The translations under genes were made by a program, and so were the position numbers. Shown one piece after another: positions 7,050 through 51,963 of a DNA stretch of 64,000 nt. A model generated the notes under the pieces. The model saw only the letters and a program-made list of their open reading frames with translations, was not told where the DNA came from and ran no database searches. Numbering within the stretch: the first letter of the stretch is position 1; each line of letters opens with the position of its first letter. The DNA lies in assembly GCF_000691505.1 (NCBI RefSeq), contig NZ_JMIP02000020.1, positions 186,001 through 250,000 of the forward strand, read 5' to 3'. The DNA comes from Halostagnicola sp. A56 (lineage in GTDB: Archaea; Halobacteriota; Halobacteria; Halobacteriales; Natrialbaceae).

Positions 7050-7170
7050 CTACTGCGACCGAGTTTTTCGAGATAGTAAGCGTACACAGCAGGCTTGAAT
7101 GAGAGAACCGTGAGTGACAGCGATCGTTTCACGTGGTTCAAATCTGACAACGCGTGCGTTGTTCGCTCCG

Positions 7171-29885: not shown

Positions 29886-30009
29886 TGGGATCGGCCGGAT
29901 TGTGAACCACGCCCGAGAACCTGCGCTTCGCGCAGAACCTCGGTCTACTCCAAATCCGGCCGATCGGTACGCATTCGTCGCTCGCGGATTTGCTCGCGAC
30001 AGAAGTGAG
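29886..30009 (-). repeat. tRNA-tail repeat unit downstream of tRNA-Pro (124 nt)
   Basis: Read on the minus strand from the end of tRNA-Pro: CTCACTTCT, a stem GTCGC/GCGAC around the 14-base loop GAGCAAATCCGCGA (29982-29995), and a stretch GATCGGCCGGATTTG (29951-29965) antisense to the tRNA TPsiC/acceptor side. A second hairpin region CCGAGGTTCTGCGC / GCGCAGGTTCTCGG follows, then a repeat of the tRNA 3' end with two changes (29886-29908). The same design follows tRNA-Ile at 50.3 kb. Confidence 0.8.
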
Positions 30010-30082
30010 TGGGATCGCCCGGATTTGAACCGGGGTCACGGGCACCCAAGGCCCGAAGTATACCAAGCTAACCCACGATCCC
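30010..30082 (-). tRNA. tRNA-Pro (anticodon TGG)
   Basis: This is a 73-base cloverleaf on the minus strand: acceptor GGGATCG pairs with CGATCCC, discriminator A, anticodon stem CGGGC/GCCCG with loop CTTGGGT, anticodon TGG. TPsiC loop GTTCAAATC is present. There is no intron. The final ~22 bases are repeated 124 bases downstream as part of the adjoining repeat unit. Confidence 0.95.
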
Positions 30083-49552: not shown

Positions 49553-50179
49553 ATGCTCCGGTGGCTCTCTGCGCTGTTGCTCATCCCGTTTCTGGACGCG
49601 GTACTCCTCGCGCTGGTCTTTAGCCGTACCGAGTTCGGGTGGGTCGCGATGGTGCTGCTGGTCGTTCTGACTGGACTGATCGGTCTGTTGCTCGTTCGCG
49701 CGGAAGGGCGACGAACGCTCGGGAAGATGCAACGCACGCTGGCGAAGGGAGAGCCACCGACGAACGAACTGCTCGACGGCGGTCTGTTGATCGCCGCCGG
49801 TGCCTTCCTGCTCACGCCGGGACTGGTCACCGACCTGGTCGGCTTTCTCCTCATCGTCCCGATCACCCGAATCCCGATCCGCGCGGCGCTCAAGCGGTTC
49901 GTGATCGTTCCCTACGCGGACAAAAAGACCAGCGGGTTCATCAGCGGCAACGTCTACACGTTCGGGTTCCCAAACGGTGGCGATGCCGGCGGACGGGGAA
50001 CCGGTTCAACCGCGTCGAACGCCACGACTGACTCGAGTGAATCCAGTGGTCGAACGTACGACCTCGACGACGACTCCTACACGGTCGAATCGGACGGGGG
50101 AGACGACGAATACACCATCGAATTCGGAGACGAGGAGTCTCGAGACGACGACGGGGACGGCGACCCCTACGCTCGGTAG
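49553..50179 (+). CDS. FxsA-family membrane protein
   Basis: This encodes 208 residues from ATG 49553. The FxsA core comprises four helices in the first 120 residues (LRWLSALLLIPFLDAVLLAL; GWVAMVLLVVLTGLIGLLLV), with a GGLLIAAGAFLLTPGLVTD motif. A long acidic cytoplasmic tail, rich in Gly, Ser, Asp and Tyr, follows. FxsA overproduction counters phage exclusion in Escherichia coli; the archaeal role is unknown. It is followed by tRNA-Ile after about 70 bases. Confidence 0.88.
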   Translation: MLRWLSALLLIPFLDAVLLALVFSRTEFGWVAMVLLVVLTGLIGLLLVRAEGRRTLGKMQRTLAKGEPPTNELLDGGLLIAAGAFLLTPGLVTDLVGFLLIVPITRIPIRAALKRFVIVPYADKKTSGFISGNVYTFGFPNGGDAGGRGTGSTASNATTDSSESSGRTYDLDDDSYTVESDGGDDEYTIEFGDEESRDDDGDGDPYAR

Positions 50180-50246
50180 CGGTTCGCACGGGTATGAGAG
50201 AAAGAAACGCTTAAACGTACCTGCCCGCAACTCACTGATGCGAAGC

Positions 50247-50320
50247 GGGCCAATAGCTCAATTAGGTCGAGCGCCACTCTGATAAGGTGGAGGTTCTCGG
50301 TTCAAATCCGAGTTGGCCCA
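50247..50320 (+). tRNA. tRNA-Ile (anticodon GAT)
   Basis: This is a 74-base cloverleaf with acceptor GGGCCAA/TTGGCCC and discriminator A at 50320. The anticodon arm is CCACT/GGTGG with loop CTGATAA, giving anticodon GAT. TPsiC arm TCGGTTCAAATCCGA. There is no intron. Two further copies of its last 22 bases follow at exact 137-base intervals. Confidence 0.95.
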
Positions 50321-50457
50321 CTTCTCGTGACGAACAAACTCGTGAGTCACGAGTATGGCATCCGACTCGGATTTGAATTATGCGAGTCGCAGCCCGGGAA
50401 GCGAACGAAGTGAGTGACCCGGAACGTCTCGAGGTGGTTCAAATTCGAGTTAGCCCA
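50321..50457 (+). repeat. tRNA-tail repeat unit 1 downstream of tRNA-Ile (137 nt)
   Basis: It starts CTTCT, then stem CGTGAC (50326-50331)/GTCACG (50346-50351) around loop GAACAAACTCGTGA. Next come ACTCGGATTTGAA (50365-50377), exactly antisense to 13 bases of the tRNA TPsiC arm, and a hairpin with CCGGG/CCCGG around GCGAACGAAGTGAGTG. It ends with a copy of the tRNA 3' end (50436-50457, two changes). Confidence 0.82.
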
Positions 50458-50594
50458 CTTCTGATGGCGAGCAAATTCGCGAGCCATAAGCTCGTGTTGC
50501 CACGAGGATTTGAGCCTTGGAAGTCGCAGCCCGCACAGCGAGTGTAACGAGCGAGCAGGACCCTCTTCCTTCGGTTCAAATCCGAGTTGGTCCA
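50458..50594 (+). repeat. tRNA-tail repeat unit 2 downstream of tRNA-Ile (137 nt)
   Basis: Same order as unit 1: CTTCTG, stem ATGGC (50464-50468)/GCCAT (50483-50487) around loop GAGCAAATTCGCGA, a weaker antisense stretch (about 50504-50515), a GC-rich hairpin region, and a tRNA 3' end copy with one change (50573-50594). A further partial copy CCGAGTTGGTCCA is at 50601-50613. Confidence 0.8.
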
Positions 50595-50703
50595 TGTTTT
50601 CCGAGTTGGTCCATGTTTTTGCGTCGAACAGGCTCTGAGTCGGGAGTGCGGACCGATGGTTCTCGAGGAGCTCACAAGTCACTGAACGAGAGATGGTTAT
50701 TGC

Positions 50704-51963
50704 TCAGGAGGTTTCGTCCGGGTCGTAACTGCACACGAAGTGGCGGTCGCGGTTGTCGGCGATGTACTCGTAGATTCGTTCGCCGACCATCCTGACCGGT
50801 GGGAACGCCATCAACAGCGTGATCGGCGCGAAGATCCGGAACTGCTTGAACAGGTGACGAAAGGCATCGTAGCCGCCGTGGGCCTCGCCATCGCGGAAGA
50901 GGTACATCTCCTTCTCGAGATCGACCTCGTCACGATCGACCAGTTCGGACGGCGCGTCTGACTGGGTGTAAAACGTGACCGAATCATTGATATCGAGGTG
51001 TTTGAAGAAATAGAGGCTCCGCGCACAGAAGTAACAACGCTCGTCGTAGACCAGTTGGACCGCGTTCGTTTGATCCGCGGCGAGTTTCCGATAGGCGACG
51101 TCCCACGCGCCAAACAGCGAGAGTACGACGACCATGTCGATGAAGTACAGTCCCAGGGTGAGCATCACGGCGACGTGAAAGCCGATCAAGCCGAGAACGA
51201 ACGGCGTTACCGTCACGCCGAGGACGACCGCGACGATAAACAGCGACTGGACGAGCGCAGTCCCGACGAAGCCGAGCCAGGCCAAGAGTTCGTGCTGGAC
51301 GACGAACTCTCCGATGGGTCGGGACATCCCGGTCGCAACCTGATTATACAGGATATCGCGCTGGAGGTCGGCACCGGAGAGGTAAATATCGAACGAGCCG
51401 TTGAGTAACTTCCCCCACGCAGCGCCGAGATACATGAGCCCGACGACGACGAGCATCCACTTGAACGGCCGCATGCGGTAGGATCGGTCGGATCCCTCCT
51501 TGAGGAACCGGTTCAGTTGCTCAAGCGAGCTCTCTTTCGTCCGGATCACCGCGTCTACAGACATCGCATCGTCGTCGTGGAAGAACGCAAAGAACAGGAC
51601 GAAATACGAACAGACGAACAGCGACTCGACGGTACCGGAGAGGTAAATCGTCGACTTGACCGAAAGCATCTCCAACAAGATGAGACTCGCGAGACCGCCC
51701 GACCACTTGATCTTGTACCCAGCGATAAAGCACACGAGCAATCCGGCGACGAGCCACTGCTGGTAGGGCAACAACGCCAGAAGCACGTCTCGGTGAAGGA
51801 AGTCGATACCAGTATTGAGGGCCCGCGGCCACTCCTGATAGAACCCCCAGTCGAGAAAGACAACGCGCCAGAGAAGGTACGCCCCCAACACGACGCGAGC
51901 GACGGCGAGATTGATCGGAGACGAGCGAGAATCGTCGGCGAAGTAGTTGATGAACGCGCTCAT
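50704..51963 (-). CDS. HTTM-type membrane protein fused to a DCC thiol-disulfide domain
   Basis: This is a 419-residue protein. The N-terminal ~300 residues have eight or nine helices resembling the HTTM (vitamin K carboxylase-like) family, with NLAVARVVLGAYLLWRVVFL and MYLGAAWGKLLNGSFDIYLS. The C-terminal ~115 residues match the DCC family: VQLVYDERCYFCARSLYFFK contains the DxxCxxC motif. The fusion suggests redox chemistry coupled to a membrane enzyme. It overlaps the next gene upstream by four bases. No substrate is known. Confidence 0.82.
   Translation of the reverse strand: MSAFINYFADDSRSSPINLAVARVVLGAYLLWRVVFLDWGFYQEWPRALNTGIDFLHRDVLLALLPYQQWLVAGLLVCFIAGYKIKWSGGLASLILLEMLSVKSTIYLSGTVESLFVCSYFVLFFAFFHDDDAMSVDAVIRTKESSLEQLNRFLKEGSDRSYRMRPFKWMLVVVGLMYLGAAWGKLLNGSFDIYLSGADLQRDILYNQVATGMSRPIGEFVVQHELLAWLGFVGTALVQSLFIVAVVLGVTVTPFVLGLIGFHVAVMLTLGLYFIDMVVVLSLFGAWDVAYRKLAADQTNAVQLVYDERCYFCARSLYFFKHLDINDSVTFYTQSDAPSELVDRDEVDLEKEMYLFRDGEAHGGYDAFRHLFKQFRIFAPITLLMAFPPVRMVGERIYEYIADNRDRHFVCSYDPDETS

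Follow-up and report, generated by a model that had tools for sequence, protein, structure and literature searches.

Tandem palindromic cassettes behind tRNA genes of haloarchaea carry copies of the tail of their own tRNA

In Escherichia coli, the tyrT tRNA gene is followed by tandem repeats (rtT RNA), each finishing with a duplicate of the 3′ end of that tRNA. These repeats, which are known from one tRNA operon, have been proposed to be small RNAs released together with the tRNA. The attC sites of integrons belong to arrays of small cassettes and form imperfect palindromes, whose stems are variable yet complementary. One documented class of integrase target lies in the T-stem-loop (Williams 2002, as cited in PMC8371274), and such a site has also been described for Ms6 (PMC1762012). 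A Haloquadratum prophage is reported to carry an integrase beside a duplicated 22-nt stretch of tRNA (PMC3119063). For Haloferax gibbonsii LR2-5, the relevant passages of the published account (PMC7921747) mention 'partial tRNAs' or remnants, several of them directly adjacent to a full tRNA. These are probably the same tail copies as those reported here, and the unit, its hairpins and an order-wide family are not described in those passages.

We scrutinized 64,000 nucleotides of Halostagnicola sp. A56 (contig NZ_JMIP02000020.1, positions 186,001 to 250,000), hereafter the window. A tRNA-Ile (GAT) gene at 50247–50320 on the forward strand, detected by ARAGORN and by Rfam (RF00005, 68.6 bits), is followed on the same strand by two units of 137 nt each, at 50321–50457 and 50458–50594. 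Like the rtT repeats, haloarchaeal units stand in tandem behind a tRNA gene, and each closes with the 3′-terminal sequence of its tRNA. Unlike them, they accompany roughly every second tRNA gene in the examined genomes, contain two covarying hairpins and a complementary arm, and encode no CCA; no Rfam model matched them. With T-stem-loop attachment sites they share a block of the own tRNA from the T-loop to the 3′ end, beside which integrase genes and one type of second hairpin lie at some loci, whereas they are themselves gene-less and carry two palindromes. Compared with integron attC by architecture alone, they likewise form cassette arrays with variable complementary stems, but their anchor is a tRNA gene.

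A unit opens with a first hairpin (HP1). After a short spacer come an arm whose sequence is complementary to the T-arm of the tRNA, a second hairpin (HP2) and, last, a repeat of tRNA positions 53–73. Most cassettes are about 100–150 bp long, with extremes of about 85 and 170. The first Ile unit was delineated by sequence, repeats and fold, and scored 111.2 bits with R1, a covariance model built from 13 units of this genome. Its HP1 (50324–50353), supported by sequence, fold and covariation, pairs CTCGTGAC (50324–50331) with GTCACGAG (50346–50353) over 8 bp and encloses the apex GAACAAACTCGTGA. The arm CCGACTCGGATTTGAA (50362–50377), recognized from inverted repeats I4 and I5 and from isotype-specific matching, is the reverse complement of the T-loop, the 3′ strand of the T-stem and part of the acceptor of tRNA-Ile. 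HP2, of type A (CGAGTCGCAG...ACGTCTCG, apex GCGAACGAAGTGAGT), lies at 50383–50431 according to fold and consensus, and the tail copy occupies 50437–50457 (repeat D1 and boundary analysis). The second Ile unit, defined by the same three kinds of evidence (R1, 91.6 bits), comprises an HP1 read from the sequence, ATGGC (50464–50468) and GCCAT (50483–50487) around GAGCAAATTCGCGA, the arm GAGGATTTGAG (50504–50514; sequence and fold), an HP2 predicted by folding (50519–50569), and a tail copy at 50574–50594 (repeats D1/D2). The last part of the tail, TCCGAGTTGGTCCATGTTT, is present as two tandem 19-nt copies at 50581–50618 (repeat D2), which are probably a slippage remnant. The original prediction had recognized the hairpin of the units and overlooked the complementary arm, the second hairpin and the exact tail copy.

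On the minus strand, a tRNA-Pro (TGG) gene found by ARAGORN (30010–30082; C13:216010-216082) anchors another unit at 29886–30009, identified by sequence, by an R1 score of 74 bits and by a match to type-B HP2. It consists of HP1 at 30000–29977 (GTCGC at 30000–29996 and GCGAC at 29981–29977, enclosing GAGCAAATCCGCGA), the arm CGATCGGCCGGATTTGG, a type-B HP2 (CCGAGGTTCTGCGCGAAGCGCAGGTTCTCGG) and a tail copy that ends at 29886. Behind tRNA-Glu (TTC), a degenerate unit (7050–7155, forward strand) shows a weak hairpin and a tail-like end, GGTTCAAATCTGACAACGCGT, and was matched by R1 with an E value of 0.70 only. Inspection of the sequence confirmed that the Pro unit and both Ile units share one hairpin with differing but complementary stems. 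The stem reported as CGTGAC/GTCACG in the first Ile unit exists, with 8 rather than 6 bp, and the Pro hairpin, equally real, lies outside 50321–50594. Tiny ORFs of a common type (MRRWSFRCVSQRCLTCESYVTPQR; MIRWETGRNKQRCLTCES...) were seen shortly downstream of tRNA genes, at about 29787–29716 on the minus strand of the window, in L024 and perhaps in L017.

Covariation was assessed on 55 first hairpins, which were selected by loop and position only. Standard pairs filled 96.0% of the pair cells, compared with 74.4% (sd 1.0) in shuffled and at most 45% in slid controls. The covariation score was 0.671, against 0.246 for shuffles (sd 0.017; 0 of 500 as high) and at most 0.175 for slid alignments, and both-sided changes occurred in 8 of the 10 HP1 pairs. 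The covariation first noticed in three units thus holds in this larger set. The 'nearly constant 14-base loop' of the original prediction is indeed a conserved apex, but it is not open. A tandem GA/GA mismatch lies inside it, with a pyrimidine-GA-purine step on both strands, and column pair 15–24, also within the supposed loop, is an R-Y pair (G-C in 28 hairpins, A-U in 26, unpaired in 1). These two features reduce the single-stranded loop to about 6 nt, and a plain RNA motif with a 14-nt loop was rejected because a covarying pair sits in the apex.

Of 140 distinct loop-motif sites located no more than 600 nt downstream of tRNA genes, 100 were flanked by a stem of four or more pairs, compared with 23 of 466 sites elsewhere in the examined DNA, several of which are units with an undetected tRNA. 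This difference places HP1 beyond chance. Haloarchaeal DNA is G+C-rich, short inverted repeats do occur in it, and the first observation comprised three units; nevertheless, the probability that chance or an alignment artefact explains the hairpins is close to nil, because the family is order-wide, the controls fall far under the observed covariation, and the 55-hairpin test refutes this explanation. As a genome-wide motif, the GCGAAGCGAG-type apex was discarded, since the window contains just three occurrences that differ by up to one base, against 1.6 expected by chance.

The tail copies and arms match their own tRNA. At least one copy of the own tail was found downstream of 17 of 39 tRNAs in this draft genome, 20 of 35 in the congener G002, and 15 of 30 in G090, which belongs to another family, and own-tail scores far exceeded those for the tails of other tRNAs. 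Across 138 units representing more than 20 isotypes, identity to the own tRNA was 0.86–1.00 per position from 53 to 73; it set in sharply at position 53, and upstream of 52 it equalled the background of other isotypes. The arm fits its own isotype beyond the universal T-loop, with 420 matches against 301 (sd 25) after permutation (0 of 2000 as high). This matching is concentrated at positions 62–66, just past the 7-base T-loop, and the arm base opposite G53 is C in 53 cases, T in 29 and A in none. Matching at 62–66 is what a T-arm core would require if the units formed an integron-like system, in which pairing of arm and tail in a folded single strand would rebuild a double-stranded T-arm core for a tyrosine recombinase to insert at the tRNA tail, each tRNA gene having its own matching array; we consider such a system very unlikely.

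The isotype-matched arm and its preferences opposite G53 would also suit a structured tRNA 3′-trailer RNA, in which units are co-transcribed with the tRNA and fold into two hairpins. Such an RNA, which we regard as possible though distinctly less than probable, could act in tRNA 3′-end processing, sequester the extra tail copies, or release small RNAs with the tRNA. It agrees with the fact that every unit is tRNA-anchored in the same orientation, with HP1 beginning no more than a few nt past the tRNA end, and with very stable predicted folds (−59.2 kcal/mol and z −5.8 for the first Ile unit; z −5.8 for tRNA-Ile plus both units). The arm-tail helix argues otherwise: where the unit tail deviates from the tRNA, the arm keeps the base of the tRNA in 21 cases vs 11, so that compensation is not seen, and the idea, hinted by the Pro unit, that the arm tracks a mutated tail was dropped because the trend is opposite. 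In the minimum-energy fold of the tRNA-Ile read-through transcript (50247–50594), moreover, the arm of the first unit pairs with the tRNA T-arm and the cloverleaf is broken; in this model, read-through into the units might inactivate tRNA-Ile. The absence of units from about half of the tRNAs, and their gain or loss between orthologous tRNAs, also speak against a trailer function.

Model R1 matched 38 sites in this genome at E ≤1. Matches were obtained in 29 of 31 relatives and in 231 of 243 Halobacteriales genomes, and two near-complete genomes of this order, G076 (3.3 Mb, 99% complete) and G027 (2.7 Mb, 98% complete), gave none, which makes them natural negative controls. In a phylum-wide sample, 51 of 295 genomes were matched, every one within Halobacteriales, and none outside that order. 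A strict HP1 pattern run over 84,980 species returned 55 stretches, and 52 of 58 hits were preceded by a same-strand tRNA at a distance of no more than 180 nt; no tRNA was detected in the surrounding stretch examined for the other six. The units are therefore a lineage-wide family of tRNA-anchored palindromic cassettes, larger than originally noted. Rfam holds no family for them, as cmscan at E ≤5 over 49900–51000 returned the tRNA and two sub-threshold minus-strand matches only, and no description of these cassettes was found in the open-access literature searched. An element that lies behind about half of the examined tRNA genes, and that was found in nearly every sampled haloarchaeal genome, bears on what follows archaeal tRNA genes and on how tRNA ends become integration hot spots. 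Unit-like sequences were also noticed on megaplasmids of Natronorubrum bangense (NZ_CP031306.1, about 823118–823257) and Natrinema thermotolerans (CP031304.1, about 235380–235462), in unannotated gaps; no tRNA is listed there, though the gene table used lists no RNA genes.

Arrays vary between close relatives. This genome (G000) has two Ile units, and both G002 and G090 have none. Between two close congeners, HP1 of the first Ile unit has been swapped as a block next to a nearly identical HP2 region, Ser_cga has one vs two units with exchanged HP2 modules, the HP2 of Ser_gga has gained a palindromic insert, and Pro_tgg has one vs zero units. Part of the covariation is thus module exchange. Type-B HP2 recurs near-verbatim behind Gly, Phe, Pro, Val, Ser and other tRNAs in many genera. 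Block swaps, palindromic insertions and truncated remnants would also be expected if the palindromes were functionless insertion scars or repeats left by elements that target tRNA genes, their complementarity being maintained by quasi-palindrome template switching and by tail-copy recombination. We think this unlikely, since the HP1 apex GARCAA..CGYGAG is kept across genera and families although the tRNA imposes no such sequence need, and since presence in nearly all Halobacteriales genomes suggests retention or constant renewal. Pieces of a tRNA-Gly array together with Phe-like units were observed far from, or well past, a tRNA at G000:C7:26644-26889, C19:63686-63934 and C15:33865-34065 (L068, L070, L207); the C7 piece breaks off in HP1, and those on C19 and C15 start in the apex of HP1, as though breaks had occurred at the hairpins.

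Selection on RNA should spare G·U more often than A·C exceptions on the transcribed strand; DNA processes make no distinction between the two. We predicted structures from Watson-Crick pairs only and compared nearest-neighbour units. Single-sided changes over all helices gave 108 G·U vs 120 A·C, and changes at unpaired positions were similarly balanced (C/T 191, G/A 187). Selection at the RNA level is therefore unsupported, which weighs against the trailer RNA introduced above. A 16:1 preference for G·U in inner HP1 pairs came from a comparison whose filter scored G·U as paired; without the filter the counts were 8 vs 4. Two other signals were discarded as RNA evidence: an arm-tail ratio of 52:16 fell to 23:16 after dropping the single column opposite G53, and an excess of T·G in outer HP1 pairs is confounded by the T-rich 5′ strand. 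In the inner HP1 stems, nearest neighbours differed by 13 double and 16 single changes, and C-G to G-C swaps predominated. Concerted or block replacement fits such changes better than stepwise compensation via G·U, and the near-equal numbers, the C-G to G-C swaps and the lack of wobble preference are also in keeping with functionless palindromes.

The claim that structure rather than coding has been selected stands in so far as a palindrome with both-sided changes is firmly supported, the ORFs overlying the array are merely mechanical, and no evidence suggests coding. It does not stand as a 'classical' case of RNA selection, since G·U is about as frequent as A·C and blocks are replaced. An RNA role is compatible with the wobble and block-swap results. 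The cassettes bear on whether DNA processes, instead of RNA selection, can yield covariation, a question that, like the two on tRNA genes above, is testable because haloarchaea are genetically tractable, and they advise caution in covariation-based RNA discovery, where covariation could stem from such processes.

A displaced array fragment of this genome (C15:31754–31871) adjoins a gene with an integrase N-terminal domain. We examined a sample of 30 loci carrying relatives of this integrase-like gene, all of one family. A unit lay close upstream of the integrase in 9 of them, on the opposite strand in all 9 (P about 1.6e-7 for an assumed background of 3%); most arrays, however, stand directly behind an intact tRNA. 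Both ends were located in six elements (G493 Arg, G132 Val, G113 Arg, G504 Phe, G503 Met and G502 Met), which share the layout of intact tRNA, element, displaced tail copy, and units. This layout indicates that integration at the tRNA tail parts the tRNA from its array. At the displaced (right) end of L302, L303 and L325, a type-B HP2 precedes the tail, and the arm and HP1 are absent. The tRNA-side ends of the mapped elements show no resemblance to HP1, so simple deletion within an element does not account for the units. A miniature derivative would have both ends in common with the autonomous element; the units have the right end, HP2-B plus tail, in common with three elements, whereas HP1 is lacking from the tRNA-side end of the elements. 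No units were found inside integrated elements in the stretches examined between both ends.

From the established anatomy, tRNA specificity, distribution, turnover and integrase-gene association, we infer, with about an even chance of being right, that the cassettes are small tRNA-anchored elements of attachment-site type shaped by DNA recombination. The duplicated block, T-loop through tRNA 3′ terminus, corresponds to one of the known targets of tyrosine integrases in tRNA genes, the T-stem-loop class. Cassettes would be moved by a recombinase, and at the DNA level they would come and go, stack in tandem and exchange modules. The palindromes would act as DNA, and would persist because folded or cruciform DNA is recognized or because template switching corrects them during replication. 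The array would provide spare landing sites beside the tRNA. Tail copies of the own positions 53–73, units at the integrase loci, the six mapped elements, HP2-B both behind several isotypes and at right ends of elements, variation of arrays between congeners and the lack of G·U preference all favour such attachment-site cassettes. Against them stand the tRNA-side ends devoid of HP1, and the need of a new tRNA for its own tail and arm, neither of which plain site-specific recombination supplies. A host function could likewise explain why nearly all haloarchaea keep the cassettes, why strand and spacing are fixed and why the apex is conserved. One strict pattern matched no unit in IMG/VR, and the matches listed from a phage collection covered the tRNA part of the query alone, which led us to reject a virus origin and also counts against attachment-site cassettes.

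The first bases after the tRNA are alike in three integrase elements (Arg, Val and Arg; L331 19283–19508, L333 16102–16326 and L338 13358–13632), where TACCGCAG or TTACTCCGCA occurs together with a CTGAATT..A motif. This similarity is likely a conserved arm of the attachment site.
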